DNA of 64,000 bases from Agelas oroides (lineage: Eukaryota > Porifera > Demospongiae > Agelasida > Agelasidae). Numbering within the stretch: the stretch's first letter is position 1; every line of letters begins with the position of its first letter. The DNA lies in the NCBI GenBank assembly GCA_949130485.1, contig OX422189.1:6029920-6093919 (forward strand), given 5' to 3'. Positions 1 to 33,000 of this stretch are shown here, piece after piece. Under the pieces are notes generated by a model. The model did not search any database. It was not told the DNA's origin and was given only the letters and a program-made list of their open reading frames with translations. The translations under genes and the position numbers were made by a program.

Positions 1-1
1 C

Positions 2-1669
2 CGAAAAATGAACACATGCACCAAACTTAACTATACAGTGTTTTCACTTTCTCGGTTTGTGAACATAGACTTGCATGCAGAATGTGGCCCATGTTCAAAA
101 TTTGGTGATGTACGTAAACTATCCATTAAGGTGACCTTAAATCAAATCTGTCCACCTGGATTTCACATTTCTGAGATCGCAAGATCATGTGTATGTGAAC
201 CAAGACTTGCAAGATATATCGGTACACTTAAATGCAATATAACAAACGGATTAGGTCGAATAACACGTGATTTAGGCGAACAGTTTTGGGTTGGATATGA
301 TGGTCAATCTGGTGGACTGATTCTCCACCCACACTGCCCTTTTGACTACTGTGTCTCTCATACTGTGGAGTTTCCTCTCAACAATACAGACCAGCAATGT
401 GCTTATCACAAGTCAGGCCTCTTGTGTGGAGCTTGTAACCAAGGTTACAGTCTGGTACTGGGTACTCATCACTGTGAGCAGTGCACGAACAGACATGTTG
501 CCTTGCTCATCCTTTTTGTAGTGATGGGAGTAGCACTGGTCTTCTTGCTCCTTGTCTGCAAACTGACAGTAGCAACAGGAACACTTAGTGGCTTAGTGTT
601 CTATGCTAATATTGTTGGAGCCAACCGCACCATCTTCTTACCAGTTAAATCAACTAATGCTTTATCAGTCTTCATTGCGTGGTTAAACCTTGACTTTGGT
701 ATTGAAACATGTTTTTACAATGGAATGGATGTCTATAGTAAAACATGGCTGCAGTTTGTGTTCCCAGCATATATCTGGGTGATAGTAGGTGTTGTAATTG
801 CCATTAGCCATTTCTCGCACAGATTTTCAAACCTGCTTGGCAACAATCCAGTTTCTGTGTTAGCAACACTTATCCTTCTTTCGTATACAAAGATCCTTCG
901 CGCATTGATTACTGTTATGTATGTCAGCTATCTTGAATATCCAACATATAACAGAAGAGTGTGGCTGTATGATGCTAACGTTAACTACCTCAGTGGAAAG
1001 CACATCCCCCTTTTTCTAGTCGCAGTGCTTGTCTTCATCTTCCTCTTTCTTCCTTACACTCTCTTGCTTCTCATTGGTCAGTGGTTGCAGGCCATATCAC
1101 ACCTGAGGCTCTTCGCATGGGTCAACAGTGCCAGGCTGAAACCATTTATGGATTCATACCATGCTCCTTACAAAGCAAAACATCGCTACTGGCCTGGATT
1201 ACTGCTTGTGTTTCGCTGTGTTCTTCTTCTAGTGTTTGCTTTGAATCCTCAGCAAGACACCAGTATTAATCTGCTAGTGATTCAACTGGGAACTGCAGTT
1301 CTTCAACTTTGGGCCTGGGTCAGTGGTGGGGTCTACAGGAACTGGTGTCTAGATGCCATTGAGGGTTCATTTGCTCTAAACTTGATTATCTTAGCAGCTG
1401 CTACCTACCATGTCCAACTCTCCGGAGGAGATCAGCTTGCAGTTGGGTATACTTCTGTCTCCATAGCACTTGTGACATTCATCGGTATCCTTGTCTACCA
1501 CATCTTCCAGCAAGTGAGGCACACCAAACTGTGGAAGAAGGTGCCTAAACTGAACTTGAAGTGCAACAACTTGAAAGTGACATTCAATCAAGTTGTGAAT
1601 AAACCTATGGACAATCCTACAATGAAGTTTGATCAACTTCGTGAATCTCTGCTCGAAGATCAGTCATAA
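2..1669 (+). CDS. Beta-helix/multi-pass membrane protein, copy A, 3' part
   Basis: The 553 residues from the first in-window ATG match residues 760-1312 of the complete paralogue at 21414-25352, with no indel. The reading frame is already open at base 2, so the true start lies left of the window and the ATG at 8 is internal. It holds a Cys-rich extracellular stretch (CPPGF, LLCGACNQGYSLVLG and CEQC motifs) followed by about eight or nine hydrophobic segments and a basic tail ending at TAA 1667-1669. I infer a plasma-membrane surface protein; the ligand and mechanism are unknown. It differs from copy B by scattered substitutions plus one dense patch at 1277-1311. High confidence that it is coding, low on function. 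Confidence 0.9.
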   Translation, partial: RKMNTCTKLNYTVFSLSRFVNIDLHAECGPCSKFGDVRKLSIKVTLNQICPPGFHISEIARSCVCEPRLARYIGTLKCNITNGLGRITRDLGEQFWVGYDGQSGGLILHPHCPFDYCVSHTVEFPLNNTDQQCAYHKSGLLCGACNQGYSLVLGTHHCEQCTNRHVALLILFVVMGVALVFLLLVCKLTVATGTLSGLVFYANIVGANRTIFLPVKSTNALSVFIAWLNLDFGIETCFYNGMDVYSKTWLQFVFPAYIWVIVGVVIAISHFSHRFSNLLGNNPVSVLATLILLSYTKILRALITVMYVSYLEYPTYNRRVWLYDANVNYLSGKHIPLFLVAVLVFIFLFLPYTLLLLIGQWLQAISHLRLFAWVNSARLKPFMDSYHAPYKAKHRYWPGLLLVFRCVLLLVFALNPQQDTSINLLVIQLGTAVLQLWAWVSGGVYRNWCLDAIEGSFALNLIILAAATYHVQLSGGDQLAVGYTSVSIALVTFIGILVYHIFQQVRHTKLWKKVPKLNLKCNNLKVTFNQVVNKPMDNPTMKFDQLRESLLEDQS

Positions 1670-2938
1670 TGAAGTTAATAAGAAATCTTTGTGTATCCTG
1701 CGTTTCTACAAGTGCACTATAAACTAAAAGTTTCACATTTGGCCTTGCACCTAAGAGAATGTAGGTAGTTGTGCATGCAAGAGTGTGAATAGTTGCTTTA
1801 ATTAGTGACTTTTAAATCTGTTCATTTTTTGTTGGGTAGCTACTCCTTGTATCCATTTTGTTATGTATATCTGCATGTGGTATCTGCTGCGACTGAAAAT
1901 TTAAATTACGTAGCTTGTTTTGCATTCTCTCCAGCTCTGTAGCTATATTTTAACCTTGTAAACCATACCGGTATTATTGATCAGTTGATGTTGAATGGAA
2001 CCCACATTTTTTGTGCCAAGAACTGCTAGTACATCCTCCCACACATGTCCAGCACTGTCACAGCTTGTACTAAGTTAACTCATTTAATCCATATGTAAAA
2101 GACTGTCACCATTCTGGGATGTCCTGAACACAGGGAGAGCACAGGGATCCCGGAATACTAAGCCAGGATACTTAATACTCCAGGATCCATGTTTTTCTCT
2201 GTGTGAGACTACCTATCAGACATCCCAAGTACGTATCCTGAGATATTTAGTGTTTCTGGATTCATGGCCTCTCCCTGTGTGGGACATCTTGGGTAGTCTC
2301 AAGTGTCCAGGGAATATCTGTGCAAGACATCCTGGGATGTCCTGCATGGCCCTGGATACACAGCACATTGAAGTGTTTCCCGCTGTGTGATAGTACTTGA
2401 CATCCCTCTTCTTCACTATGGTGAGGAGGTACATCAACCAGAAATTGATTGAACCCATGCACTAAAAAGGGAACTAGCCACTCATGCAGTAAAGTGACAG
2501 AAGCTACTACAATAGCATAGGTTTTACGGAAGTTACCAAGTTCCCCGAAATCCTAGCCTCGTTCCCAGACCCGTTCGAATGTTTTTGAACGGGCTCCGAT
2601 ATTTCAAACAGGCCTGAACTGGGCCTGGGAATGAGGCTACCAGAAATCCTTGTCCTTTTTGGTTAATGTTATTAAAGGACCATGCAGCAATTGATTGTTC
2701 TTCACAAAAGGAATGTCAGGGCAAAAGGTTAGTAAGCAAGTGGTAAATGTGGACAACCATGCAGTGAAGCATTGGCATAACCACAGAGTCAATGACAGAG
2801 ATGGATATGTTTTTATAATGCACTCTAATAATAATATTGCTGATCCACTTTTCCTTTAACTGCAAATCATAGCATCAGTAATCTAAGGTGATTAATCACT
2901 GTAGCTGTTATAATAAGTGTTTGCTGTTCAACATTTAG
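1670..2938. other. 3' flank of copy A membrane gene
   Basis: No gene is visible. It probably holds the 3' UTR of the preceding gene. Bases 2100-2460 contain diverged internal repeats of words such as GGGATGTCCTG and CCAGGATCC, possibly an old repeat. A foldback element lies at 2554-2639. The whole stretch is repeated at 25353-26621. Confidence 0.6.
2554..2639. mobile_element. Foldback MITE, TAGCCTCG family, copy 1
   Basis: An 86-bp element beginning TAGCCTCGTTCCCAGACC and ending with the near reverse complement GGCCTGGGAATGAGGCTA. Flanks CCGAAATCC and CCAGAAATCC resemble a decayed 9-bp target duplication. The same insertion is present in copy B, so it predates the duplication. Confidence 0.8.
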
Positions 2939-3073
2939 GAGCTGGGAGACTTCCATTTTGGAGACATTCCTCTGGAGACTGTACACCTATCTAAGCGGAA
3001 AGAGTATGGACCTGATGGTTATTATAAGTGTATTGCTGATTACCCTATTGCCAGTGTTTCCTTTGCATCATGA
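2939..3073 (+). CDS. Orphan terminal exon, 44 residues, copy A
   Basis: An open stretch directly after an acceptor-like ACATTTAG reads ELGDFHFGDIPLETVHLSKR and 24 more residues (with an EYGPDGYYKC run), then stops at TGA 3071-3073. ATTAAA at 3085-3090 could be its poly(A) signal. Its composition is protein-like, unlike the flanks, and the copy at 26622-26756 is identical while surrounding sequence has drifted. No ATG or upstream exon is visible, so it may be the last exon of an unseen gene, an alternative 3' exon, or a stranded gene fragment. I do not recognise the family. Confidence 0.45.
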   Translation, partial: ELGDFHFGDIPLETVHLSKRKEYGPDGYYKCIADYPIASVSFAS

Positions 3074-3134
3074 TCTGAAAGTTTATTAAACTGACTGTTT
3101 TTGTAAGATTACTGTGACACAAAATATATATGCT

Positions 3135-3167
3135 TAGCCTTGTTCCCAGACCATGTGGATGAGGCTA
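3135..3167. mobile_element. Truncated TAGCCTCG-family element
   Basis: A 33-bp remnant with both ends (TAGCCTTGTTCCCAGACC and GATGAGGCTA) but almost no interior. Present also at 26818-26850. Confidence 0.5.
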
Positions 3168-3174
3168 GTACATG

Positions 3175-3250
3175 GTGTGCGGTGGGTGACTTTGCATAAC
3201 ATCTAGGCCTGCCCTTTTCAGGGAGATGTAGTTCATTGATTGTTCATGGA
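3175..3250 (+). mobile_element. Fragment of the hammerhead-bearing retroelement
   Basis: The sequence from GTGCGGTGGGTGACTTTGCA through CATCTAGGCCTG, GGGAGATGTAGTTCATTGAT and GTTCATGG matches 7636-7710, the stretch immediately downstream of the hammerhead cleavage site. It begins close to that site and lacks the ribozyme core. Repeated in copy B near 26860-26935. Confidence 0.6.
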
Positions 3251-3447
3251 CAGTAAAAGCTAGCCTTTTAGCTACCCAGAGAGTTGCCTGGAGAGGGTTG
3301 TATCATGCAATCCTGTGCCCTACACTGAGCTCCAGATGTACATAAACGTAAAATATATTTCTGCACCATGCAGCCAGATGTGTGTTGTAAGCACAAATAG
3401 AAGGTACCCAAATAATGTGCATGTAAGTTATTATACATATAGTTAAT

Positions 3448-3566
3448 GACAGTGTTGAGAGTGACAATGTGACAGTGTGACAGTATGACAGTGTGACAGT
3501 AGGACAGTGTGACAGTGTGACAGTAGGACAGTGTGATGGTGTGACAGTAGGACAGTGTGACAGCTG
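3448..3566 (+). repeat. Short GACAGTGT minisatellite
   Basis: About ten degenerate units of GACAGTGT/GACAGTAG, the reverse complement of the large array at 10231-11571. Copy B has a shorter version at 27171-27255, so the tract changed length after duplication. Confidence 0.85.
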
Positions 3567-3702
3567 TTCTTCAGAAATATATACATATTGCTGGCTGGCC
3601 TTTGATATGGCTCAAATTCTTTTCATCAACTGCTTCTTGTAGACTTCTTACAACTGAACACAAAGCATTGGACACAACTTCACTATCAGGCAGCAAATTT
3701 TC

Positions 3703-3778
3703 TAGTCTCGTGCCCAGACCCCTTTCGGAAAAATCGATTCTTCTCGATTTTTCCGAAAGGGATCTGGGCACGAGACTA
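3703..3778. mobile_element. Foldback MITE, TAGTCTCG variant
   Basis: A 76-bp near-perfect hairpin: TAGTCTCGTGCCCAGACCCC, an inner arm built on TTTCGGAAAAATCGA, then the reverse complement ending GGGCACGAGACTA. The copy B version at 27394-27469 has lost some arm complementarity. Confidence 0.8.
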
Positions 3779-4284
3779 CTCCACAATCAATGTATCTCTC
3801 AGTACCAAGCTAGCTTGTAGAATGGTTCAAGGAGTTCCTCATCAGCTCCCTCTGCAACTGTGTCTATCTCTCTTACAACACGATCAATTTCGACCAACAC
3901 CAGAAATCTGTTTCAAGATATAGTATAACCAGAAAAAAGGATGTAAAATACAGAATATCATTTGAAAAATGTGTGCAATTTTTTAAAAAAATGCATTTAA
4001 AAACATCGATTTTTGTCCACAATTAGACACCATAGCTATTCAGTATACCATTGTCACATTTCTACTGTATATTCAACTTGACTGCTTAGCTGCAATTAAG
4101 TTTGTGAGTACAACCACCCACGCCTTAATCTCAAGAATTGACACAATTACTCAAGGTACATATACCTTGTTTGCTAAACAAATAATATGGTGTACAAATG
4201 CCTTATAGGTTCCATTATGTGCATTGTTTAAGATTCAACACTGACACAGAACTGTTTTTGTCTTCAGTCACAAGATCTAGAGGC
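3779..4284. other. Intergenic region upstream of small membrane gene
   Basis: AT-rich; no gene recognised. A TTTGTCTTCAG tract ending at about 4266 could be a splice acceptor for the exon that carries the following start codon. Confidence 0.4.
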
Positions 4285-4677
4285 ATGCATGGCAAGCTCG
4301 TCACAGATGCAATCGTAGTGATATTGCTCCTGCTCATGAGAACCCACACTGTGAGGTGCAAAGAGACCAGTGGGAATGGCATTCATATGGGTAGTGGCAG
4401 TGGTAGTAGCAGTGGAGGCAGTGGTGATGTTGATAGCAGCTCAACGACTTGGAATTTAACGTCCATAATGCCATCAGTTTCACTCAAGGGACCAACTTCA
4501 ACAAATAAGTCACCACCGAATTCACCTACGTATACTGGCCACACAACCTCTACATCCCCTCCCATTGGGTCAAAGTTTCAACTAGTGCTGATAGTGGCAG
4601 GTGGGGTAGCAGGTGTCCTCCTGCTCCCGATACTGTTGCTCTGCTGTTGCTGGTGCTGGTACTACTGTAAGAAGTGA
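4285..4677 (+). CDS. Small single-pass membrane protein, copy A
   Basis: A 130-residue protein. Residues 1-25 form a signal peptide (MHGKLVTDAIVVILLLLMR, ending near a Cys). A low-complexity Gly/Ser stretch and a Ser/Thr/Pro-rich, probably O-glycosylated ectodomain follow. A hydrophobic segment at about 103-122 leads into a Cys/Trp-rich end, CCCWCWYYCKK. I chose the ATG at 4285 because it begins the signal peptide; the open frame upstream lacks one. Likely a type I membrane or mucin-like surface protein. The copy B paralogue differs by in-frame indels and several replacements, suggesting constraint on frame but loose constraint on sequence. No family recognised. Confidence 0.65.
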   Translation: MHGKLVTDAIVVILLLLMRTHTVRCKETSGNGIHMGSGSGSSSGGSGDVDSSSTTWNLTSIMPSVSLKGPTSTNKSPPNSPTYTGHTTSTSPPIGSKFQLVLIVAGGVAGVLLLPILLLCCCWCWYYCKK

Positions 4678-5128
4678 GAGTTTGCGAAAGAATCCTGTGT
4701 TACTGAGCTGCATGCCAACAAATCAGACTATGTACGTATACCTTCTTGTTTTGTTGTAATCTGAAGTAGTTTCTATACCAGCTTTTGTGGACATATCTCT
4801 CACTTCTATACCCATGGTATTTTATTCTAAGTTCAAATTTTCTTGTTGCATGTTGTATTTACCCAACAGCCAACTGCCTGATTGTGGTATGAAATACCGT
4901 ACTGTAATGCTGCCCAGTATCACTGTATAGCTGGAAGCAGTACTCATTGAGGTAGAACTATAAATCACAATATTAACTACTATACATATAGTAAAACAAA
5001 TGTCTTTGTATAGTCACATTAGGGTAAGTAGTATAGTACTGCCTACTATCACTGAAAGGCTGGCAGCAGCACTGACCGCAGTAGAAGTGGGACTGGGTTC
5101 GGGGCCACCCACAATCTCTGCAACAGTC
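4678..5128. other. Intergenic region between convergent genes
   Basis: Separates the 3' ends of the small membrane gene (plus) and the lipase remnant (minus). No other gene seen. Confidence 0.5.
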
Positions 5129-6250
5129 TCAAGCACATGCAGTTGTGCTGGTTACCATTTGTCCGTGATTGATTCCAGGGCAAGTTAAGCTAGAGAATGG
5201 TTCGCTTTGTTCATTTTGCCATTTCAGACACACTTGTGAGCTTAGGAGGTTGACAGTTCCATCTCCATCACCATAGTTGATATTGGTTGGATTCACATCA
5301 AATCCATATGGTTCCATATGTATAGCTTTCTGGGGTGGGGACATTTACTCCATACAAGCAGTGAATCGGGACACAGGGGGCAGGATAGTCAGTCTCGTTT
5401 AGTGGAACAATTCCCAGATACATCTGGTACCCCTGGGGATAACCAATGTCTGCAAAAAAAAAATCTTCGTAGTCATTGGTTGTGTAGTTTCGAGTGGTTG
5501 ATGTCACAAATAGCTACTGTGTTATTCCAAACAGAGGGTTTGGGAAACAGCCATACCGAGCTCTGAAATGTGCGGTAAGCCAGATGAAGTGGGCCAGTGA
5601 TCACTCCACTTAATCCTGAGTTCCCTCCAGACCAGCCCCCCAAGAGAGTGACCCAGGCATTGATGTACTGGTCCTTCCATTCCTGAGTGACCACTTCATT
5701 GAGAAAGTACAGGGACACAATGCCACCCATGCTATGGGCCACAATTGTCACCTTTTCTCCCCCACTACTATTATGCATAGTCTCTATCAGGTTTCTCACA
5801 TGAGAGTAGTATCCAATATTATACACTTCATCTGAAGGACAAATAAAAGAAAATTTAAGCAACCACTATATCTATATGTATATTTTGTCACGTATTTTAT
5901 AGCAATTTCATAAAATGAAAACAAACAAGCAAACATCAACAAGCAGTTGAGATGGTATTTCAGTGCAGAAAAGAAACCTGTCAGCTTCTTCACCTAATGT
6001 TGACTTACCTCCAGCTATCCCAGGCATAATATTATGGAGCTGCTCGAATGGTATTTCCTCTCTCATAACCCCTGGCAACAAAATAGTCGACAAATGTGCT
6101 GAAATATGGAGAGGATTGTCCAAGAACTCCACTGTACTGGGTCTCCAAATCCTGGCACCCGGACTTCCACTCCTGTATATTGTTGCTGTAGGTATCATCA
6201 GTGCTGTTGTAGAGGAGCCTGCAGTGGGTTATATGATGGTTACAGTGAGT
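5129..6250 (-). pseudogene. LCAT/PLA2G15-like phospholipase, copy A, decayed
   Basis: Reading from 6250 down, the translation follows lysosomal phospholipase A2/LCAT: an ARGYERGNTIRAAPY block, intron 6008-5832 (GTAAGT...TTCAG, phase 1), the nucleophile elbow AHSMGG, WKDQYINAWVTL, FFADIGYPQGYQMY, HCLYGVNVPTPESY, GDGDGTVN (catalytic Asp) and PGINHGQ (catalytic His). These enzymes deacylate or transacylate phospholipids in lysosomes or outside the cell. All three triad positions survive, but the frame is broken: about 4 extra bases near 5509-5515, another shift near 5316-5325, and three slips near 6110-6170. The usual PYDW after RAA is PYNI. The N-terminal exons are not found and a MITE lies just upstream at 6271. 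It could be a gene with sequencing errors, but several breaks argue for a pseudogene. Confidence 0.8.
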
Positions 6251-6981
6251 CTGTACAAAGCTCTCATGAAGATGTAGGGATGGGCTTTGCCAATATGTTG
6301 ACCATTGCTTTCATGCATTATCTCTACCTTGTTTGCATACTTTTTAGCATGCCATCCCTACATCTTTTTACATTTTTAATGTGTTTTTTAAGTCTTGTTT
6401 GTGTGGGTTTTTTTAAGGTGGTATGAGGGCTTTAACCTAAACACCCTGTGAAAACATCTGAGCTTGCACCTCACATTACATGCCATACTTATGAGCAGAA
6501 CAAGTTTGTTTGTGTATCTTAATCTGATTGCAGCATGATAAACACTTTTGTAACAACAAGCAGCATAAATGTTCACAAGCCTGTATATATAAATAATGCA
6601 AGATAAAAGTCGTATATAGTTATAATATGCATGTAAAGGTCCTTGTCCTTTGTTCTAATAATTTTTAAAGTTAATTATCACTTTGCTGTTGGTGATCTGC
6701 ATAAAAAAGGCATTTTATGGTGACTTAGTTGTTACAGTGTTTGTCAAACAAAAACTTATTAAACTTACAGTAGTTCCATATCCTCGGGGCTCCCCTCTCC
6801 TCCCCCTGTACCGCCCCCTTCTCCCATTGTAACGAGTGGGCGGTGGAGTGGGGGGTGGGGGTGGGGGGAGGGGCACCAGTACCCCCCACATGGCTAGTCT
6901 GCAGGACAAGGAGGAAAATCTTGAAGCCTCAATAATACGTACTTGTACACAGGCGGTATAGGAATGTAATTCAGTGTATAC
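6251..6981. other. Upstream flank of lipase remnant
   Basis: Contains the GATGTAGGGATGG hairpin element and a G-rich strand run at 6835-6880 (several GGGG blocks, possible quadruplex). No lipase N-terminal exon with a signal peptide or VLVPG-type block was found. Confidence 0.45.
6271..6364. mobile_element. GATGTAGGGATGG hairpin MITE, copy 1
   Basis: A 94-bp element bounded by GATGTAGGGATGG and CCATCCCTACATC, with an inner inverted pair (AGGTAGAGAT-like words). Other copies are at 8816-8910, 30629-30722, 46398-46492 (opposite orientation) and 46831-46912 (right end lost). A shared tail TTTTACATTTTTAATG follows most copies. Confidence 0.8.
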
Positions 6982-7245
6982 ATGGATAGCAACATACCCT
7001 CAAAACCTGCATACGGAGTAGTAATTTCACAGTTAGTTCGATATTTGAGGATATGTTGCAATTACCAAGATTTTGCTTACAGATCTAAACTACTCACAAC
7101 CAGATTATTTAGACAGGGATATGTATACCAAAAACTCTGTAGCACCTACAAGACCTTTGTGCATCGCTACCCCAGGACTTTACAGAAGTACGGGAGGTGC
7201 CTGAAAAACATTATTACTGAATGCATTGCCTTACCTACTGTTTAA
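6982..7245 (+). mobile_element. Reverse-transcriptase C-terminal fragment, copy A
   Basis: An 87-codon frame with SNIPSKPAYGVVISQLVRY and a spaced LLTTRLFRQGY segment, ending at TAA 7243-7245. I recognise this as the conserved end of a widespread animal retroelement reverse transcriptase ('NIPS.PAYGV.ISQL.RY'). The catalytic core is absent, so this is a 5'-truncated tail. The hammerhead ribozyme 340 bp downstream fits one element, possibly Penelope-like, but I cannot assign the class. Copy B at 31327-31590 has the same translation. Confidence 0.65.
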
Positions 7246-7588
7246 CACAGCCTGAACATGCAGTTAGCACATTTATACACACACAGCCTTTAAACACGCA
7301 CTGTTTGCCTCACAGTTTGCATTGTGCCTTACTAGCCATTAATACTTCCGGTACCTCCAGCGCCTCTGTATGCGCGCGCGCGCACGCACGCATTTACGCA
7401 CCGATAACACGTGACGATCAATGATTACGATCGCTACGCAAGAAGATCTTCGAACGAAAGACATCTGCACGAAGAACAGCTGCACGAAGAGACGGTGCTT
7501 TCGAAGATCGGAGTCTCTACCGACTTTTGAATAAGGCCAGCCACCTGACTGCATTCTGTGCATGATATGGCAGTCCCCATCTCCCGGT
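7246..7588. other. Retroelement 3' region before ribozyme
   Basis: No gene. Holds a purine-pyrimidine run GCGCGCGCGCACGCACGCA near 7372-7391 and AAGA/TTCGAA-rich sequence. Probably the 3' untranslated part of the retroelement. Confidence 0.4.
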
Positions 7589-7647
7589 CACCCCAGCGCA
7601 GCTGATGAGGCCTGGTATTGGCCGAAACGCGTCCTGCGCAGTGGGTG
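7589..7647 (+). ncRNA. Hammerhead ribozyme, minimal type I
   Basis: Every core element is present in order. CTGATGA is at 7602-7608. Stem II is GGCC/GGCC with loop TGGTATT (7609-7623). GAAA is at 7624-7627. A very short stem III pairs A7627-U7632 and C7628-G7631 around a two-base loop. GUC places the cleavage site after C7633. Stem I pairs GCGCAG (7596-7601) with CTGCGC (7634-7639), then CACCC (7589-7593) with GGGTG (7643-7647) across an internal loop. Such minimal helix III hammerheads are known from Penelope-like and related retroelements, where they process element RNA. The copy B version has lost the core. Confidence 0.82.
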
Positions 7648-8152
7648 ACTTTGCACTGTAACATCTAGGCCTGTTTTATAAGGGAGATGTGGTTCGTTGA
7701 TTGTTCATGCATGCCTACCAGTGGCAGCAGCATGGTAGAGATTGACAAATTATTATGCTTTTGTTTTTACCCATTATTCTATTCTATTATTCCACCAAAT
7801 TTTTACCTATTATTCTCACTAACCTTACCCATTATTCTCAATAAAAATCCACAATTTTTAGATAATCTTTACAAAACTTAACTGCAACATTACTGACAAA
7901 GAAACATACTCTTCAAGACAATGCCTTTGTTGGTGTGTAAATGAATTTTCTAACACAGAAAAAACCCTCTCCACTGATGCAGAGGACAGCTGAACCAATA
8001 AAACAATGAATACTATTACATGCAGGAAGTATTATACCATTTCAAGGAAGTGTTTAGCTCATAATTACATATTTCCCAAATTCCTACCTATTATTCTATA
8101 ACAGAATCTACACTCCTATTATTCTAAAAATTATGCTAGCATATTTTGTCAA
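7648..8152. other. Flank with TATTATTCT-rich repeat ends
   Basis: No gene. After the retroelement tail (to ~7715), 7755-7840 and 8090-8135 each carry several copies of CCTATTATTCTA/CCCATTATTCT, as subterminal repeats of a degraded transposon might. Repeated in copy B. Confidence 0.4.
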
Positions 8153-8347
8153 TGCCTGGAGTGGAGGGGTGGGAGGACCGGCTGGAGGGGCAGGAGGACT
8201 GGCTGGGGGGGCGGGAGGACCGGCTGGAGGGGCGGGAGGACCGGCTGGAGGGGCCTGAGGTGCCGGAGGACCGGCGGGAGGACTGGGTGGAGGGGCGGGC
8301 AGACCTTCAGGAGGAGGGGCACTGGGAGAAGAGAAGGAGCTGTGGCA
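8153..8347. repeat. 21-bp GC-rich minisatellite, copy A
   Basis: Units of GGCTGGAGGGGCGGGAGGACC keep one frame open on the minus strand, reading PAPPAGP repeats. The minus-strand side has an acceptor-like TTCTGCCACAG at its upstream edge but no matching GT donor. It may be a proline-rich exon, but a frame-keeping 21-bp period explains the open frame without coding. Copy B at 32461-32655 appears unchanged. Confidence 0.7.
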
Positions 8348-8644
8348 GAAAAGATAAAGGATAGTCTGAAAAGATATAGTCAAATTACTGGATGTGAGCG
8401 GTGCTCGTGACTACCGGTAAAGTTTGCAGTCTGAGAGTAACCTTTTGTGATATAAATACAAGTAGGGAACAGTCATTTTCTGTCACACATGAAGCGAAAT
8501 ATGAGATGCGTACCAGTAGACGCCACTAGGAACTCCTCATTCACATCCATGTTGACAAAGAAGTCTATATGGCAAGAATCAAGGGTAATAAGTGTACGCG
8601 TACGTAGAAGTTACGCAGCAATGTATAAATACTTTGAAACATAC

Positions 8645-8687
8645 CGCTCTCGAATGAATCGTCGGGCCGGCGCCCTTCTTCAGCCAT
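8645..8687 (-). CDS. Candidate first coding exon, minus strand, copy A
   Basis: A strong-context start (GCCATGGCT) opens 14 codons, MAEEGRRPDDSFES, followed directly by a consensus donor GTATGT. Copy B at 32953-32995 keeps the structure with one R-to-W change. Nothing downstream could be joined in phase, so it is only a candidate. Confidence 0.25.
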
Positions 8688-10230
8688 GGCAAGTGATAGA
8701 TTGTGAAGAAAAATGAAGTGTTGCAGCAGCGCCTGCAAGATAAACCCCGACAGGTAGACGCGCATACGTGTCGGCATTGACATTCCCACACACAAAAGTC
8801 GGTGGTTGTGAAAAAGATGTAGGGATGGGACTTTGGCAATATGTTGACCTTTGCTTTCATCCATTATCCCTACCTTGTTTGCATACTTTTTGGCATGCCA
8901 TCCCTACATCTTTTTACGTTTTTTAAGTCTTTGTTATAAATTATACAGTTTTTGCTTAAGTATTGCATATATTGCGCGTCCGCGCCATCCCTACATAGAG
9001 AGTCTACCGACTATCTGATATCAGGGTGCCTTACATTAAGTCATTCAAAAGGCACTGTGGTGCAAGTTGTTGATTCACCCAAACTCTTTCCCACATTCCA
9101 TTTGTACAACATGAGCAGTTGAAGGGATCAGAGGTCACACCTGGGAGCCAATAAAACCAAGGACTGTATGAGTAAAAAAAAAAGATTTACATTGATAACC
9201 AGACCAGAAGCTCTCTTTTAAAGGCATGAACATCTCTGTTGTTCAACTGAATACTCTGCATGTAATTGGCAACAGAAAGTACAGAATAAAGGACTCAATT
9301 TGCAGTTGGGTTGCGTCACTTCCAGTGTATGCACAAGTTGCTCCCTTGTGCAGCTCTTGACTGTTGCAGCACATGAAACTCCTCAGGCTGAAGCATGCAT
9401 ACCAGACTGGCAATGTCTGGCATTCATTATTTATTACATGTTTGTTTAGCCCTTTAAGATGCTGCACATAATTGAACCTATGAATATTCCACGTTACAAG
9501 TCAACCCAAGCCATTGCTACCACAGAACAAACATGACACCACTAATCATATTCTTCAGGACCAATGAACGGAATGTTGCCTAGGGGTGCCAACAGAGCTA
9601 GCTAAATTCAACCTATTAATATGCATGAGGGGAGAGATTGCCTGACTTCCAGCCTTGCATTACATGCCTTTAATGAGATTCATTGATCTCAATTCGGACA
9701 TTAACAACATTCACGAGTATCCAGTGAGGGATAATGAAATTCATAGCCCTGTTCTGTTTGGGTTTGAGTCCATGAAAGGCTTAGGGCACACTCATAATTT
9801 ACCATTCCTTTCACCCAAAGTCAAGCTGCCAATGTTTTAACAGAAGGTCAATAATGAGGCTCATGAGAGTCAACATACTCTAACCCTCCCATTGGACAGC
9901 TGACTGAACCCAGGGTTGTTCATGGGTAATGCTGAGGTCTAGTTAAAGCCAACTCATTAATATTCATGCGATGGACAGAAACACTTTAGAGCTCTGTCCG
10001 GCTTTAATTAGATTCATAGGCTCAATTAGGGTAGGGAGATTCGGGTTAATGAGGGTTAAGGCAAACCAGGGTTAGGGCTAGGGCTAGACTTAGGGTCTTA
10101 AACCCTGAATTTTTTTTCACTTGAGACTAGTTTAGCCTATACATGCCTTTAACGCAACCGTATCTCCATTTCTGTCCAAGCTCTGACTCCAAACTGAACC
10201 CAGCTCCACTTCCAACCATACTCGTGACCT
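8688..10230. other. Intergenic region unique to copy A side
   Basis: No gene recognised. It contains the hairpin MITE at 8816-8910, an 85-bp segment at 8938-9022 found inverted at 44966-45051, and degenerate TTAGGG-like words at 10070-10100 (GGGTTAGGGCTAGGGCTAG). The equivalent of copy B would lie in the N gap. Confidence 0.5.
8816..8910. mobile_element. GATGTAGGGATGG hairpin MITE, copy 2
   Basis: A 95-bp copy with both ends intact (GATGTAGGGATGG and CCATCCCTACATC). Confidence 0.8.
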
Positions 10231-11571
10231 GCCATACTGTCATACTGTCACACTGTCATACTGTCATACTGTCACACTGTCAAACTGTCAGGACAGTGTG
10301 ATGGTGTGACGGTAGGACAGTGTGATGGTGTGACAGTAGGACAGTATCTACTGTCACACCATCACACTGTCCTACTTTCACACTGTCATACTGTCACACT
10401 GTCAAACTGTGACACTGTTACACTGTCCTACTGTCACACTGTCCTACTGTCACACTGTCATACTGTCACACTGTCAAACTGTGACACTGTCACACCATCA
10501 CACTGTCTTACTGTCACACCATCACACTGTCCTACTGTCACACCATCACCCTGTCTACTGTCACACCATCACACTGTTCCACTGTCACACCATCACACTG
10601 TCCTACTGTCACACTGTCCTACTGTCACACCATCACACTGTCCTACTGTTACACTGTCATACTATCACACTGTCAAACTGTGACACTGTCACACCATCAC
10701 ACTGTCCTACTATCACACCATCACACTGCCTACTGTCACACCATCACACTGTCCTACTGTCACACTGTCATACTGTCACACTGTCAAACTGTGACACTGT
10801 CACACCATCACACTGTCCTACTGTCACACTGTCATACTCTTCTACTGTCACACTGTCCTACTGTCACACCATCACACTGTCCTACTGTCAACCATCACAC
10901 TGTCCTACTGTCACACTGTCAAACTGTGACACTGTCACACCATCATACTGTCTACTGTCACACTCATGACTTTCATACTCTCCTACCGTCACACTGTCCT
11001 ACTGTCACACCATCACACTGTCCTACTGTTACACTGTCACACTGTCCTACTGTCACACTGTCACACTGTCCATCACACTAGCTGTCCTACTGTCAACCAT
11101 CACACTGTCCTACTGTCACACCATCACACTGTCCTACTGTCAACCATCACACTGTCCTACTGTCACACTGTCAAACTGTGACACTGTCACACCATCACAC
11201 TGTCCTACTGTCACACTCATGACTTTCATACTCTCCTACTGTCACACTGTCCTACTGTCACACCATCACACTGTCCTACTGTCAACCATCACACTGTCCT
11301 ACTGTCACACCATCACATAGCCTCGTACCCAGGCCGTTTTTTTTTATTTTTCGAGCGGCCTGGGTACGAGGCTAACCATCACACTGTCCATCACACTAGC
11401 TGTCCTACTGTCAACCATCACACTGTCCTACTGTCAAACTGTCATACTGTCAAACTGTCACACTGTCACACCATCACACTGTCCTACTGTCACACTGTCA
11501 TACTGTCACACTGTCACACCATCACACTGTCCTACTGTCACACTGTCATACTGTCACACTGTCATATGTGC
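10231..11571 (+). repeat. CACTGTCCTACTGTCACAC minisatellite array
   Basis: About 1.3 kb of ACTGTC-based units 8-25 bp long (CACTGTCCTACTGTCACAC, CCATCACACTGTC). The stretch 10288-10345 is in the opposite orientation, so the array has a head-to-head junction near 10346. A 57-bp foldback element is inserted at 11318-11374. Long His/Thr/Ser-rich frames here are a by-product of the repeat. Confidence 0.95.
11318..11374. mobile_element. Foldback MITE with exact 9-bp target duplication
   Basis: TAGCCTCGTACCCAGGCC and its reverse complement flank a short T-rich loop. ACCATCACA is present at both 11309-11317 and 11375-11383. Because it sits inside the minisatellite, the pre-insertion sequence is obvious and confirms a 9-bp duplication. 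Confidence 0.9.
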
Positions 11572-11738: not shown

Positions 11739-12175
11739 TGTAACAAGAACTCGTATGTCATAGTTATGTCATCATTTATGTTATGTAACAGTTGATGGGT
11801 GTCATGTGATCAGATCTGCTTGTGGAATTAAAATGAGCAGTCTGTGAGCATAAAGCTTCTCTCGTTACATGGTTGGCAGCGGTGGGATCAGTCCCAATGC
11901 CGACACTACTATACGATAAAAGAAGACGCTGAAAACAAAAGAGGTGGCAAAATAGACTTACCGGGACGCCTAGTGTTGGAGATCAGCACGGATACAATCC
12001 ACGTGCCCAGAGTAAAATGGCGACGGGTAACTACACGTTACCGCAACCACAAGAATTGGAGATACACGATCTACAAGCCGCCAAGAAATGGAAAAAATTC
12101 ATACGAGCTTGGGAGCTATTCACTAGCGACGGAGCTAAACGAGAAGTCGGAAACAATCCAGGTGGCGACATTACG
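11739..12175 (+). mobile_element. LTR retrotransposon 5' fragment
   Basis: A 131-bp LTR runs from TGTAAC at 11739 to GTTACA at 11869. Directly after it, TGGTTGGCAGCGGTGGGAT is a typical primer-binding and leader start. An ATG at 12017 opens a Gag-like N-terminus (MATGNYTLPQPQELEIHDLQ) of about 53 codons before 192-bp satellite sequence replaces it near 12176. No protease, polymerase or 3' LTR is seen. Probably Ty3/gypsy-type, truncated by satellite growth or a deletion. Confidence 0.7.
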
Positions 12176-15100
12176 GCGATGGTGCAGGAGGAACAATTTG
12201 CAAACTCGTACCGCTTTGTGCGTTGATTGCACAAACGGAGGGTTTGCGTTTTTGGCCTCCTCATTCCCACAGCTTCTTGTTCATATGTAGTTTGCACTAT
12301 TGTTCCGTGATAGGGTTTGCAGGGAATTTACGCGAATTTCCATTGCCGATACTATGCGGCGGTGGTGCAGGAGGAACGATTTTTAAGCTCGTACCACTTT
12401 GTGCGTTGATTGCAAAAACGGAGGGTTTGCGTTTTTGGCCTCCCCATTCCCACAGCTTCTTGCTCATATGTAGTTTGCATTAGTGCAACTATTGTTCCGG
12501 GATAGGGTTTGCCGAGAATTTGCGCGAATTTCCATTGCCTATTCTATGCGGCGATGGTGCAGGAGGAACAATTTGTAAGCTCGTACCGCTATGTGCGTTG
12601 ATTGCACAAACGGAGGGTTTGCGTTTTTGAGCTCCCCATTCCCACAGCTTCTTGCTCATATGTAGTTTGCATTAGTGCAACTATTGTTCCGTGGTAGGGT
12701 TTGAAGGGAATTTACGCGAATTTCCATTGCCGATACTATGCGGCGATGGTGCAGGAGGAACAATTTGCAAGCTCGTACCACTTTGTACGTTGATTGTACA
12801 AACGGAGGGTTTGCGTTTTTGGCATTCCCACTCCCACAGCATCTTGCTCATATGTAGTTTGCATTAGTGCAACTATTGTTCCGTGGTAGAGTTTGCAGGG
12901 AACGGACGCGAATTTCCATTGCCTATTCTATGCGGCGATGGTGCAGGAGGAACAATTTGCAAGCTGTTTCCGCTTTGTGTATTGATTGCACAAACGGAGG
13001 GTTTTAGTTTTTGGCCTCCCCATTCCCACAGCTTCATGGTCATATGCAGTTTGCATTAGTGCAACTATTGTTCCGTGGTAGGGTTTGCAGTGAATTTACG
13101 CGAATTTCCATTGCCGATACTTTGCGGCGATGGAGCATGAGGAACAATTTGCAAGCTCGTACCACTTTGTACGTTGGTTGCACAAACGGAGGGTTTGCGT
13201 TTTTGGCCTCCCCATTCCCACAGCTTCTTGCTCATATGCAGTTTACATTAGTGCAACTATTGTTCCGTGGTAGGGTTTGCATGGAATTTACGCGAATTTC
13301 CATTGCCTATTCTATGCGGCGATGGTGCAGGATGAACAATTTGCAAGCGCGTACCGCTTTGTGCGTTGATTGCACAAACGGAGGGTTTGCGTTTTTAGCC
13401 TCCCCATTCCCACAGCTTGTTGCTCATATGTAGTTTGCAGTAGTGCAACTATTGTTCCGTGGTAGGATTTGCAGGGAATTTACGCGAATTTCCATTGCCG
13501 ATACTATGCGGCGATGGTGCAGGATGAACAATTTGCAAGCTCGTACCGCTTTGTGCGTTGATTGCACAAACGGAGGGTTTGCGTTTTTGGCCTCACCATT
13601 CCCACAGCTTCTTGCTCATATGTAGTTTGCATTAGTGCAGCTATTGTTACGTGGTAGGATTTGCAGGGAATTTACGCGAATTTCCATTGCCTTTTCTATG
13701 CGGCGGTGGTGCAGGAGGAACAATTTGCAAGCTCGTACCGCTTTGTGCGTTGATTGCACAAACGGAGGTTTTTTTTTTCGTTTTTGGCCTCCCCATTCCC
13801 ACAGCTTGTTGCTCATATGTAGTTTGCAGTAGTGCAACTATTGTTCCGAGGTAGGATTTGCAGAGAATTTACGCGAATTTCCAATGCCGATACTATGCAG
13901 CGATGGTGCAGGATGAACAATTTGCAAGCTCGTACCGCTTTGTGCGTTGATTGCACAAACGGAGGGTTTGCGTTTTTGGCCTCCCCATTCCCACAGCTTG
14001 TTGCTCATATGTAGTTTGCAGTAGTGCAGCTATTGTTCCGGGGTCGGATTTGCGGGGAATTTACGCGAATTTCCATTGCCGATACTATGCGGCGATGGTG
14101 CAGGATGAACAATTTGCAAGCTCGTACCGCTTTGTGCGTTGATTGCACAAACGGAGGGTTTTCGTTTTTGGCCTCCCCATTCCCACAGCTTCTTGCTCAT
14201 ATGTAGTTTGCGTTAGAGGAACTATTGTTCAGGGGTAGGATTTGCAGGGAATTTACGCGAATTTCCATTGCCGATACTATGCGCGATGGTGCAAGATGAA
14301 CAATTTGCAAGCTCGTACCGCTTTGTGCGTTGATTCCACAAACGGAGGGTTTTTTCGTTTTTGGCCTCCCCATTCCCACAGCTTCTTGCTCATATGTAGT
14401 TTGCATTAGTGCAACTATTGTTACGGTGTAGGATTTGCAGGGAATTTACGCGAATTTCCATTGCCTTTTCTATGCGGCGATGGTGCAGGAGGAACAATTT
14501 GCAAGCTCGTACCGCTTTGTGCGTTGATTGCACAAACGGAGGGTTTGCGTTTTTGGCGTACCCATTCCATCAGCTTCTTGCTCATATGTAGTTTGCATTA
14601 GTGCAACTATTGATCCGGGGTAGGATTTGCAGGGAATTTACGCGAATTTCCATTGCCTTTCCTATGCGGCGATGGTGCAGGAGGAACAATTTGCAAGCTC
14701 GTACCGCTTTGTGCGTTGATTGCACAAACGGAGAGTTTGCGTTTTTGGCCTCCCCATTCCCACAGTTTCTTGCTCATATGTAGTTTGCATTAGTGGAACT
14801 GTTGTTCCGTGGTAGGATTTGCAGGGAATTTACGCGAATTTCCATTGCCTTTTCTATGCGGCGATGGTGCAGGAGAAACAATTTGCAAGCTCGTACCGCT
14901 TTGTGCGTTGATTTCACAAACGGAGGGTTTTAGTTCTTGGCCTCCTCATTCCCACAGCTTCATGGTCATATGCAGTTTGCATTAGTGGAACTATTGTTCC
15001 GTGGTAGTGTTTGCTGTAAATTTACGCGAATTTCCATTGCCGATACTTTGCAGCGATGGAGAATGAGGAACAATTTGCAAGCTCGTACCACTTTGTGCGT

Positions 15101-16446
15101 TGATTGCACAAACGGAGGGTTTGCGTTTTTGGCCTCCCCATTCCCACAGCTTCTTGCTCATATGTAGTTTGCATTAGTGCAACTATTGTTCCGTGGTAGG
15201 ATTTGCAGGGAATTTACGCGAATTTCCATTGCCTTTTCTATGCGGCGATGGTGCAGGATGAACAATTTGCAAGCTCGTACCGCTTTGTGGGTTGATTGCA
15301 CAAACGGAGGGTTTCGTTTTTGGCCTCCCCATTCCCACAGCTTCTTGCTCATATGTAGTTTGCATTAGTGCAACTATTGTTCCGTGGGAGGATTTGCAGG
15401 GAATTTACGCGAATTTCCATTGCCTTTTCTATGCGGCGATGGTGCAGGATGAACAATTTGCAAGCTCGTACCGCTTTGTGGGTTGATTGCACAAACGGAG
15501 GGTTTCGTTTTTGGCCTCCCCATTCCCACAGCTTCTTGCTCATTTGTAGTTTGCATTAGTGCAACTGTTGTTCCGTGGTAGGATTTGCAGGGAATTTACG
15601 CGAATTTCCATTGCCTTTTCTATGCGGCGATGGTGCAGGAGGAACAATTTGCAAGCTCGTACCGCTTTGTGCGTTGATTGCACAAACGGAGGGTTTGCGT
15701 TTATGGCTTCCCCATTCCCACAGCTTCTTGCTCATATGTAGTTTGCATTAGTGGAACTATTAATCCGTGGTAGGATTTGTAGGGAATTTACGCGAATTTC
15801 CATTGCCTTTTCAATGAGGCGATGATGCAGGAGGATCAATTTGCAAGCTCGTACCGCTTTGTGCGTTGATTGCACAAACGGAGGGTTTCCGTTTTTGGCC
15901 TCCCCATTCCCACAGCTTCTTGCTCATATGTAGTTTGCATTAGTGCAACTATTGTTCCGTGGTAGGATTTGCAGGGAATTTACGCGAATTTCCATTGCCT
16001 TTTCAATGAGGCGATGGTGCAGGAGGAACAATTTGCAAGCTCGTACCGCTTTGTGCGTTGATTGCACAAACGGAGGGTTTTCGTTTTTGGCCTCCCCATT
16101 CCCACAGCTTCTTGCTCATATGTAGTTTGCATTAGTGCAACTCTTGTTCCGTGGTAGGATTTGCAGGGAATTTACGAGTATTTCCATTGCCTTTTCTATG
16201 CGGCGATGGTGCAGGAGGAACAATTTGCAAGCTCGTACCGCTTTGTGCGTTGATTGCACAAACGGAGGGTTTGTGTTTATGGCTTCCCCATTCCCACAGC
16301 TTCTTGCTCATATGTAGTTTGCATTAGTGCAACTATTGTTCCGTGGGAGGATTTGCAGGGAATTTACGCGAATTTCCATTGCCTTTTCTATGCGGCGATG
16401 GTGCAGGAGGATCAATTTGCAAGCTCGTACTGCTTTGTGCGTTGAT

Positions 16447-16599
16447 TGCACTAATGCAAACTACATATGATCAAGAAGCTGTGGGAATGGGGAGTCCAAA
16501 AACGCAAACCCTCCGGTTGTGCAATCAAACGGAGGGTTTGCGGTTTTGGACTCCCAAATCCCACAGCTTCTTGCTCATATGTAGTTTTCGTTAGTGCAA
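16447..16599. repeat. Inverted satellite segment (hairpin)
   Basis: A reversed piece of the monomer (16447-16515) faces a forward piece (16530-16599), giving arms of about 70 bp. The same structure recurs at 17672-17824. Confidence 0.85.
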
Positions 16600-17671
16600 C
16601 TATTGTTCCGTGGTAGGAATTGCAGGGAATTTACGCGAATTTCCATTGCCTTTTCTATGCTGCGATGGTGCAGGAGAAACAATTTGCAAGCTCGTACCGC
16701 TTTGTGCGTTGATTGCACAAACGGAGGGTTTTAGTTCTTGGCCTCCTCATTCCCACAGCTTCATGGTCATATGCAGTTTGCATTAGTGGAACTATTGTTC
16801 CGTGGTAGTGTTTGCTGTGAATTTACGCGAATTTCCATTGCCGATACTTTGCAGCGATGGAGAATGAGGAACAATTTGCAAGCTCGTACCACTTTGTGCG
16901 TTGATTGCACAAACGGAGGGTTTGCGTTTTTGGCCTCCCCATTTCCACAGCTTCTTGCTCATATGTAGTTTGCATTAGTGCAACTAATGTTCCGTGGTAG
17001 GATTTGCAGGGAATTTACGCGAATTTCCATTGCGATAATATGCCGCGATGGTGCAGGATGAACAATTTGCAAGTTCGTACTGCTTTGTGCGTTGATTGCA
17101 CAAACGGAGAGTTTTCGTTTTTGGCCTCCCCATTCCCACAGCTTCTTTCCGAAATGTAGTTTGCATTAGTGCAACAATTGTTCCGTGGGAGGATTTGCAG
17201 GGAATTTACGCGAATTTCCATTGCTTTTTCTATGCGGCGATGGTGAAGGAGGAACAATTTGTCATCTCGTACCGCTATGTGCGTTGATTGCACAAACGGA
17301 GGTTTTGCGTTTTTGGCCTCCCCATTCACACAGCTTCTTGCTCATATGTAGTTTGCATTAGTGCAACTATTGTTCCGTGGTAGGATTTGCAGGGAATTTA
17401 CGCGAATTTCCATTGCCGATTCTATGCGGCGATGGTGCAGGATGAACAATTTGCAAGCTCGTACCGCTTTGTGCGTTGATTGCACAAACTGAGGGTTTTC
17501 GTTTTTGGCCTCCCCATTCCCACAGCTTCTTGCTCATATGTAGTTTGCATTAGTGCAACTCTTGTTCCGTGGTAGGATTTGCAGGGAATTTACAAGTATT
17601 TCCATTGCCTTTTCTATGCGGCGATGGTGCAGGAGGATCAATTTGCAAGCTCGTACCGCTTTGTGCGTTGA

Positions 17672-17824
17672 TTGCACTAATGCAAACTTCATATGAGCAA
17701 GAAGCTGTGGGAATGGGGAGTCCAAAAACGCAAACCCTCCGTTTGTGCAATCAAACGGAGGGTTTGCGGTTTTGGACTCCCAAATCCCACAGCTTCTTGC
17801 TCATATGTAGTTTTCGTTAGTGCA
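17672..17824. repeat. Second copy of inverted satellite segment
   Basis: Matches 16447-16599 with few changes, 1225 bp downstream, marking the higher-order repeat period. Confidence 0.85.
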
Positions 17825-20800
17825 ACTATTGTTCCGTGGTAGGAATTGCAGGGAATTTACGCGAATTTCCATTGCCTTTTCTATGCTGCGATGGTGCAGG
17901 AGAAACAATTTGCAAGCTCGTACCGCTTTGTGCGTTGATTGCACAAACGGAGGGTTTTAGTTCTTGGCCTCCTCATTCCCACAGCTTCATGGTCATATGC
18001 AGTTTGCATTAGTGGAACTATTGTTCCGTGGTAGTGTTTGCTGTGAATTTACGCGAATTTCCATTGCCGATACTTTGCAGCGATGGAGAATGAGGAACAA
18101 TTTGCAAGCTCGTACCACTTTGTGCGTTGATTGCACAAACGGAGGGTTTGCGTTTTTGGCCTCCCCATTCCCACAGCTTCTTGCTCATATGTAGTTTGCA
18201 TTAGTGCAATTATTGTTCCGTGGTAGGATTTGCAGGGAATTTACGCGAATTTCCATTGCCGATAATATGCGGCGATGGTGCAGGATGAACAATTTGCAAG
18301 TTCGTACCGCTTTGTGCGTTGATTGCACAAACGGAGAGTTTTCGTTTTTGGCCTCCCCATTCCCACAGCTTCTTTCCGAAATGCAGTTTGCATTAGTGCA
18401 ACAATTGTTCCGTGTGAGGATTTGCAGGGAATTTACGCGAATTTCCATTGCCTTTTCTATGCGGCGATGGTGAAGGAGGAACAATTTGTCATCTCGTACC
18501 GCTATGTGCGTTGATTGCACAAACGGAGGTTTTGCGTTTTTGGCCTCCCAAATCCCACAGCTTCTTGCTCATATGTAATTTTCGTTAGTGCAACTATTGT
18601 TTCGCGGTAGGAATTGCAGGGAATTTACGCGAATTTCCATTGCCTTTTCTATGCGGCGATGGTGAAGGAGGAACAATTTGTCATCTCGTACCGCTATGTG
18701 CGTTGATTGCACAAACGGAGGTTTTGCGTTTTTGGCCTCCCAAATCCCACAGCTTCTTGCTCATATGTAGTTTTCGTTAGTGCAACTATTGTTCCGTGGT
18801 AGGAATTGCAGGGAATTTACGCGAATTTCCATTGCCTTTTCTATGCGGCGATGGTGCAGGAGAAACAATTTGCAAGCTCGTACCGCTTTGTGCGTTGATT
18901 GCACAAACGGAGGGTTTTAGTTCTTGGCCTCCTCATTCCCACAGCTTCATGGTCATATGCAGTTTGCATTAGTGGAACTTTTGTTCCGTGGTAGTGTTTG
19001 CTGTGAATTTACGCGAATTTCCATTGCCGATACTTTGCAGTGATGGAGAGTGAGGAACAATTTGCAAGCTCGTACCACTTTGTGCGTTGATTGCACAAAC
19101 GGAGGGTTTGCGTTTTTGGCCTCCCCATTCCCACAGCTTCTTGCTCATATGTAGTTTGCATTAGTGCAACTATTGTTCCGTGGTAGGATTTGCAGGGAAT
19201 TTACGCGAATTTCCATTGCCGATAATATGCGGCGATGGTGCAGGATGAACAATTTGCAAGTTCGTACCGCTTTGTGCGTTGATTGCACAAACGGAGAGTT
19301 TTCGTTTTTGGCCTCCCCATTCCCACAGCTTCTTTCCGAAATGTAGTTTGCATTAGTGCAACAATTGTTCCGTGGGAGGATTTGCAGGGAATTTACGCGA
19401 ATTTCCATTGCCTTTTCTATGCGGCGATGGTGAAGGAGGAACAATTTGTCATCTGGTACCGCTATGTGCGTTGATTGCACAAACGGAGGTTTTGCGTTTT
19501 TGGCCTCCCCATTCACACAGCTTCTTGCTCATATGTAGTTTGCATTAGTGCAACTATTGTTCCGGGGTAGGATTTGCAGGGAATTTACGCGAATTTCCAT
19601 TGCCGATAATATGCGGCGATGGTGCAGGATGAACAATTTGCAAGCTCGTACCGCTTTGTGCGTTGATTGCACAAACGCAGGGTTTGCGTTTTTGGACTCC
19701 CCATTCCCCCAGCTTCTTGCTCATATGTAGTTTCCATTAGTGCAACTCTTGTTCCGTGGTAGGATTTGCAGGGAATTTACGCGAATTTCCTTTGCCTTTT
19801 CTATGCGGCGATGTTGCAGGAGGAACAATTTGGAAGCTCGTACCGCTTTGTGCGTTGATTGCACAAACGGAGGATTTGCGTTTTTGGCCTCCCTATTCCC
19901 ACAGCTTCTTGCTCATATGTAGTTTGCATTACTGAAACTGTTGTTCCGTGGTAGGATTTGCAGGGAATTTACGCGAATTTCCATTGCCTTTTCTATGCTG
20001 CGATGGTGCAGGAGGAACAATTTGCAAGCTCGTACCGCTTTGTGCGTGGATTGCACAAACGGAGGGTTTGCGTTTTTGGCCTCCCCATTCCCACAGCTTC
20101 TTGCTCATATGTAGTTTGCATTAGTGCAACTCTTGTTCCGTGGTAGGATTTGCAGGGAATTTACGCGAATTTCCATTGCCTTTTCTATGCTGCGATGGTT
20201 CAGGAGGAACAATTTGCAAGCTCGTACCGCTTTGTACGTGCATTGCACAAACGCAGGGTTTGCGTTTTTGGACTCCCCATTCCCACAGTTTCTTGCTCAT
20301 ATGTAGTTTGCATTAGTGCAACTCTTGTTCCGTGGTAGGATTTGCAGGGAATTTACGCGAATTTCCTTTGCCTTTTCTATGCGCGATGGTGCAGGAGGAA
20401 CAATTTGCAAGCTCGTACCGCTTTGTGCGTTGATTGCACACACGGAGGGTTTGCGTTTTTGGACTCCCCATTCCCACAGCTTCTTGCTCATATGTAGTTT
20501 GCATTAGTGCAACCATTGTTCCGGGGTAGGATTTGCAGGGAATTTACGCGAATTTCCATTGCCTTTTCAATGAGGCGATGGTGCAGGAGGAACAATTTGC
20601 AAGCTCGTACCGCTTTGTGCGTTGATTGCACAAACGGATGGTTTGCGTTTTTGGCCTCCGCATTCCCACAGCTTCTTGCTCATATGTAGTTTGCATTAGT
20701 GCAACTGTTGTTCCGTGTTAGGATTTGCAGGGAATTTACGAGAATTTCCATTGCCTTTTCTATGCGGCGATTGTGCAGGAGGAACAATTTGCAAGCTCGT

Positions 20801-21315: not shown

Positions 21316-21413
21316 AATTTCCTCTAGGAATTAACTGCATGAGACCAGAAAATATTTATGACTGTTGATTATTCAGTGTAGGTGGAATACAATCCTCTGC
21401 TGTTTTGCAAATC
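21316..21413 (+). promoter_or_regulatory. Short 5' flank of the beta-helix gene
   Basis: Only 98 bp lie between the last satellite base and the start codon. AATATTTATGA near 21350 is a weak TATA-like word. Whether transcription starts here or in the satellite, or a 5' UTR exon is spliced to TTCAGTGTAG (21373-21382), cannot be decided. Confidence 0.3.
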
Positions 21414-30608: not shown

Positions 30609-30628
30609 CTGTACAAAGCTCTCATGAA

Positions 30629-32995: not shown

Positions 32996-33000
32996 GGCAA

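Follow-up and report, generated by a model that had tools for sequence, protein, structure and literature searches.

Minimal type I hammerhead ribozymes have reportedly been described in Penelope-like elements (PLEs) and Terminons by Cervera and de la Pena in 2014, Lunse et al. in 2017 and Arkhipova et al. in 2017, and endonuclease-deficient PLEs are also said to exist. Two reviews describe type I hammerheads that lack helix III, both in PLEs and Terminons and dispersed in animal genomes, where copies with virtually no stem III number in the thousands, and indicate that such minimal hammerheads may cleave as dimers (PMC7761336, PMC6155905). The association with Penelope-like retroelements made in a preliminary description of the present locus agrees with these accounts. 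Minimal hammerheads are common in animal genomes, and their role in retroelements is still termed a mystery in a 2020 review (PMC7761336). In the PAc element, a PLE of the Anolis lizard, the hammerhead cleaves with the help of the element's own protein and gives no RNA cleavage without it; insertion in vitro was unchanged in ribozyme mutants, and RNA reads with an end at the cut site were absent (PMC11167929). These observations make the need for cleavage itself doubtful.

The window, which is the whole 64,000-nt stretch of DNA that was analysed, contains one more motif of this known kind, and a dead twin and a segment past the cut site that is shared with another element type add to its interest. 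The motif consists of the following parts.

7587–7649, + strand: complete motif of a minimal type I hammerhead ribozyme, stem I of 13 pairs (sequence; descriptor scans; HH9 match of 22.5 bits, E 0.0029; fold z −3.36)
7602–7608, + strand: core CUGAUGA (sequence; sole full descriptor match in the window)
7609–7623, + strand: stem II, GGCC 7609–7612 with GGCC 7620–7623, 4 pairs, 7-nt loop UGGUAUU (sequence; fold)
7624–7633, + strand: GAAA 7624–7627, palindromic ACGCGU 7627–7632 in place of stem III, and C7633 as H17 (sequence; fold energies)

The minimal hammerheads of PLEs and Terminons, as the reviews above describe them, share with this motif a core without gaps, both stems I and II, a helix III that is all but absent, letters compatible with dimer formation and a setting of animal-like noncoding DNA. 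In contrast to them, the present motif has a 13-pair stem I with an internal loop and occurs as a single copy, no pseudo-LTR pair was seen, and the adjoining reverse transcriptase (RT) remnant ends without a recognised endonuclease. The metazoan non-LTR retrozymes (PMC7229834) are alike in their type I hammerhead, their weak helix III and an element without an RT of its own, whereas the present ribozyme lies outside any tandem 150–450 bp repeat, and no other complete ribozyme is close by. The PAc ribozyme (PMC11167929) is likewise of the minimal type and is transcribed as part of an element that bears an RT, but it spans the ORF start, while the ribozyme described here lies 340 nt past the RT stop. 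The Rfam family HH9 (RF02275) resembles the motif in its core layout and in a stem I with an internal loop, and it differs in the stem III hairpin, which is missing here. A literature search for hammerhead ribozymes in sponge genomes or retrotransposons gave, among the matches listed, none that by its title concerned a sponge genome.

The hammerhead motif and its missing stem III

The features that define the hammerhead class, which are the core CUGAUGA, the GAAA and the UH at the cut site, were each read in the sequence, and stems I and II enclose this core with the open end at stem I, as in the type I layout. The complete set of invariant core bases and the four-pair stem II had already been reported in the preliminary description, and both were confirmed. 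Stem I is formed by an inner helix of 6 pairs (GCGCAG 7596–7601 with CUGCGC 7634–7639), an internal loop (CA 7594–7595 opposite AGU 7640–7642) and an outer helix of 7 pairs (GUCACCC 7587–7593 with GGGUGAC 7643–7649); the internal loop had been correctly noted before, while the eleven pairs counted then are those inside 7589–7647. The hammerhead at 7587–7649 is real as a sequence motif, and its cleavage would be expected after C7633.

To estimate how often such an arrangement arises by chance, both strands were scanned with a descriptor, which demanded at least 4 pairs in stem I, at least 3 in stem II and, judged by letters, one or more in stem III, whose region could be up to about 40 nt long. 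The sequence CTGATGA alone occurs 14 times in the two strands of the window, while the descriptor matched only the 7587–7649 motif, and this was again the sole match when a relaxed core was included. A control of 625 Mb of single-strand first-order Markov sequence gave 10 matches with at least 5 pairs in stem I and at least 3 in stem II. Four matches were obtained with at least 6 and at least 4 pairs, respectively, which corresponds to about 0.0008 expected in the window's 128 kb, and one of these four also had a stem III region of at most 6 nt, or about 0.0002 expected in 128 kb, with the 7 outer pairs of the motif's stem I left uncounted in this test. A tight text pattern with 3 mismatches allowed was found once against 0.14 expected, and a looser one, found once against 3.14 expected, was not significant.

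The scoring with Rfam, which had been proposed as a check, gave a divided outcome. At the gathering score the window contained no hammerhead match, and hammerhead was absent among the 32 matches listed for the whole window at E ≤ 2. In a 401-nt scan, the best match was HH9 with 22.5 bits against a gathering score of 52, and with an E value of 0.0029. The lack of a covariance-model hit had been named beforehand as evidence against the motif, and it was found at the gathering score; yet, as the alignment showed, a stem III hairpin forms part of the HH9 model, and the low score is probably the price of missing it. The sub-gathering score and the 3.14 expected occurrences of the loose pattern could be taken to mean that the motif is a chance arrangement, but with one comparable arrangement in 625 Mb of random sequence we consider this exceedingly improbable.

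The pair A7627–U7632 can be read at the position of stem III. Because only CGCG intervenes between A7627 and the cut-site U7632, a stem III hairpin in cis is impossible beyond this single A–U pair. The two-pair stem III proposed previously, in which C7628–G7631 would follow the A–U pair and leave a 2-nt loop, had to be abandoned as a hairpin that one RNA cannot close. Two arrangements are physically possible: A7627 and U7632 may pair across CGCG, or two ribozymes may be joined by a 6-bp ACGCGU/ACGCGU helix. Since ACGCGU is its own reverse complement, two such motifs could share stem III. Forcing the lone A–U pair changed the energy of the monomer from −28.5 to −22.6 kcal/mol, a cost of ∼6 kcal/mol. 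The lowest-energy fold of the monomer pairs letters of the core and, at −30.9 kcal/mol, was better by 2.4 kcal/mol than the −28.5 kcal/mol hammerhead fold without stem III, both values describing secondary structure only, without tertiary contacts. The best predicted fold of the dimer also differs from the hammerhead dimer. The fold had a z score of −3.36, and 1 of 200 shuffles was equally good. The descriptor scans and model R1, which was derived from the two ribozyme copies in the window, found no second complete ribozyme in the window that could serve as a dimer partner.

The RT tail and the segment past the expected cut site

The coding remnant upstream of the ribozyme and the segment downstream of the cut site, together with their matches in the window, are listed below.

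6982–7246, + strand: 87-aa remnant assigned by sequence comparison to an RT C-terminus, homology from about 6979, no RT piece upstream (protein and tblastn comparisons)
31327–31591, + strand: the RT tail in its second copy, preceding the dead ribozyme (alignment; tblastn 31333–31575)
7634–7709, + strand: predicted post-cleavage segment, ending TTGATTGTTCATG (blast within the window)
3150–3248, + strand: second element type, with the post-cleavage segment at 3176–3248 and without the RT tail (blast within the window)
26865–26933, + strand: duplicate of the second element type (blast within the window)

The peptide ending in 'NIPS.PAYGV.ISQL' had been taken for an RT-type tail, and its relatives support this assignment. 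The best of them, an ORF on contig L006 of a bacterial bin, is 54% identical over 57 aa and carries FRYIDDVL followed by the same tail, which indicates that the window tail represents an RT C-terminus. A second relative, on the 4.4-kb contig L004 in a Candidatus Thioglobus bin, is 41% identical over 81 aa; the genome scan that yielded it returned 63 stretches fitting the pattern, of which 1 was confirmed. In contig L017, FRYIDDVL lies in a separate ORF. When pieces of the relatives were compared with the window, they matched 6979–7230 and the duplicate at 31324–31575, the next best row being weak (E 0.016). As the homology starts only at 6979, the RT appears to be cut off at about this point, and the ORFs of the relatives continue upstream of it for 124 aa (L004) and 135 aa (L006), which is the pattern of 5′-truncated retrocopies. 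Within the ORF, which ends at 7246, Pfam recognised no GIY-YIG endonuclease, the domain looked for in a PLE, and gave no match of any kind to the peptide (P0001). Pfam, NCBIfam and PDB gave no name to the tail peptide, a literature search for its motif strings found no paper, and a single match at E 2 in a search with profile A3 was taken as chance. By the likeness of its motifs, the tail may be Penelope-like.

Comparison of the L004 ORF with 83 genomes of the Thioglobus family gave 9 matches on 6 contigs from 3 genomes. The window peptide matched five of these six contigs at E ≤ 0.001 and the sixth, L015, over 23 aa only, while a fourth genome gave one weak match (G021, E 9.7e-4, 4 stops). 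Pfam found no RT match in 6 pieces of the relatives, and the L004 ORF gave a structure model of poor quality (mean pLDDT 38.4). The contigs with such RT pieces in Thioglobus-family bins (L004, L006 and L014–L017) look like contamination from an animal host, and we infer this origin for the L004 contig. In viral contigs, four protein scans confirmed no relative of the tail, and a plasmid tblastn match at E 0.3 was taken as chance.

The RT stop at 7246 and the ribozyme start at 7587 are separated by 340 nt on the same strand, as the preliminary description had stated. The connection between the two is one of adjacency only and is plausible. The descriptor detected no hammerhead in the 6 contigs that carry RT relatives (for L016, in 15,000 of 15,460 bases), nor did Rfam (at E ≤ 5 for L004 and E ≤ 1 for the other five), and the hammerhead pattern was found in none of the 3 whole bins that hold RT relatives. 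Rfam is a weak control on these contigs because its whole-window scan at E ≤ 2 also missed the window's own motif; the descriptor and the text pattern, which matches that motif, are better ones. The 6 contigs come from other organisms, and several of their RT copies are broken. Across 117,719 bases, taken from the window and the contigs, model R1 found only the two window copies. The minimal hammerhead pattern, with a slightly shorter gap, was found in 0 of 369 gammaproteobacterial genomes, and two pattern matches of the form CTGATGAG...CGAAACGCGTC in viral contigs (L001, 11666–11707, − strand; L002, 6724–6764, + strand) both failed the stem descriptor.

Past the expected cut site, 7635–7709 matches 3176–3248 (84%, E 4.5e-16), and 7641–7709 matches 26865–26933 (83%, E 8.1e-13). 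This second element type ends on the same letters, TTGATTGTTCATG; comparison within the window showed no RT tail match near it, and neither model R1 nor the descriptor found a ribozyme at 3150–3248. Upstream of 3176–3248 there is a 7-bp hairpin, ACCATGT/ACATGGT, around GATGAGGC, for which our guess is a ribozyme relic; a 7-bp stem was formed in 17 of 1000 shuffles. The sharing of a 3′ end by copies whose 5′ ends differ is consistent with the 5′ truncation of one element and, equally, with a short independent element. No second copy of the 3′ segment, as in a pseudo-LTR or tandem arrangement, was present within 6500–8500, the nearest in the window being 3176–3248, and no tandem 150–450 bp repeat in the window includes the ribozyme. 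For the ribozyme-bearing copy A, no 7-nt target-site repeat was found in the zones searched; the repeat TAGCCTT at 3135 and 3261 of copy B was not counted, as about 0.5 is expected by chance. Both element types carry past the cut site a small hairpin ACATCT/AGATGT with an inner stem (7661–7690 and 3199–3229), and the segment holding it is no more stable than shuffles. A longer 3′-segment pattern gave 0 matches in viral contigs; a 16-mer of the segment occurred in 1 viral contig, which gave no blastn match to the window (E ≤ 0.01).

These data are best explained by a minimal type I hammerhead of the kind known from PLEs and dispersed in animal genomes, lying in a 5′-truncated retroelement copy of which about 75 nt follow the cut site, the adjoining RT possibly being its own; we regard this reading as likely. 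In a live parent, two ribozymes, in tandem in one transcript or on two transcripts, would pair through ACGCGU and form a shared 6-bp stem III. A cut after the C equivalent to C7633 would then give a unit-length RNA with its 5′ end at 7634, and the window locus would be a lone leftover copy beside the terminal 87 codons of an RT, possibly its own. It is also quite possible, although we give it somewhat less than even weight, that the ribozyme and the RT tail come from two insertions, in which a short non-autonomous hammerhead element, retrozyme- or SINE-like, lies near an unrelated RT relic. This alternative disputes the RT link only, and its probability overlaps with that of the reading above. 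The second element type (3176–3248 and 26865–26933), which has only the segment past the cut site in common with the ribozyme locus and lacks the RT tail, points to two insertions, as does the count of 0 of 6 RT-relative contigs with a hammerhead. On the other hand, the tail and the ribozyme are closely spaced on the same strand, a single long element that was truncated would likewise account for 5′ ends that differ and a 3′ end that is shared, the contigs with RT relatives belong to other organisms, and the tandem repeat that marks animal retrozymes does not include this ribozyme. The linking of this RT tail class to a hammerhead, as suggested in the preliminary description, is favored by strand, spacing and 3′ end, and disfavored by the RT contigs and the second element type.

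A further reading is that a minimal hammerhead belongs to the RT group with the terminal motif PAYGVxISQL, that it is cut some 75 nt short of the element's 3′ end, and that the cleaved 3′ RNA piece was itself re-inserted. The homology with the second type (3176–3248) begins at 7635, one base past the first base of the cleaved 3′ piece, while the duplicate at 26865 aligns from 7641 only, and BLAST ends are fuzzy. We think this reading unlikely; if it were true, dispersed minimal hammerheads in this host would have the PAYGVxISQL RT as their source.

The duplicated locus and its dead ribozyme

The ribozyme and the RT tail lie in a part of the window that is present twice, and the second ribozyme copy is damaged.

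31932–31975, + strand: second ribozyme copy, 19 nt missing, core dead, stem I kept (alignment; model R1)

The region 1–5325 aligns with 23684–28958, with 120 of 5225 aligned bases substituted (2.3%), and the region 5319–8692 aligns with 29692–33000, with 14 of 3308 substituted (0.42%). About 730 bases stand between the matching blocks in copy 2 (28959–29691) and none in copy 1. The duplication of 1–8692 as 23684–33000 represents either a tandem duplication or uncollapsed alleles. A 200-N gap is located at 33001–33200.

The loss in the second copy, the placement of which is ambiguous by 1 nt, removes loop II, the 3′ strand of stem II, the GAAA and the letters of stem III up to the base before the cut-site U. 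The ribozyme had been called intact, which holds for the first copy but not for the second. The fact that a near-identical copy lacks 19 nt of the core suggests that the ribozyme is decaying or polymorphic. This observation also bears on whether the host has retained the ribozyme for processing an RNA at this locus. While one copy has a sequence-complete core although the adjoining RT is truncated, the other copy, 0.42% substituted over 3.3 kb, has lost its core, hence selection to keep the ribozyme is not evident and its retention by the host is very unlikely. The locus combines an RT tail and a ribozyme with a second copy that is dead, and a separate element has only the post-cleavage piece in common with it, so that the question of whether new insertions take their ends from cleavage can be put here in concrete terms.

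Satellite arrays with 192-bp units occur once per duplicate (12174–21315 and 33201–39157), and an array with 203-bp units follows the second of them (39164–42141); the descriptor found no hammerhead in the 192- and 203-bp arrays of the window. Arrays with an 8-bp unit (ACTGTCAC or its complement) are located at 10217–11567, 3461–3563 and 27171–27255, and several sub-gathering matches to microRNA families fall at 10222–10370, inside an 8-bp array. A 1327-aa stop-to-stop ORF at 21369–25352 contains Chlam_PMP repeats, which may be reminiscent of sponge proteins, and, as judged by eye, a membrane-like C-terminus, and its duplicate runs off the left end of the window.
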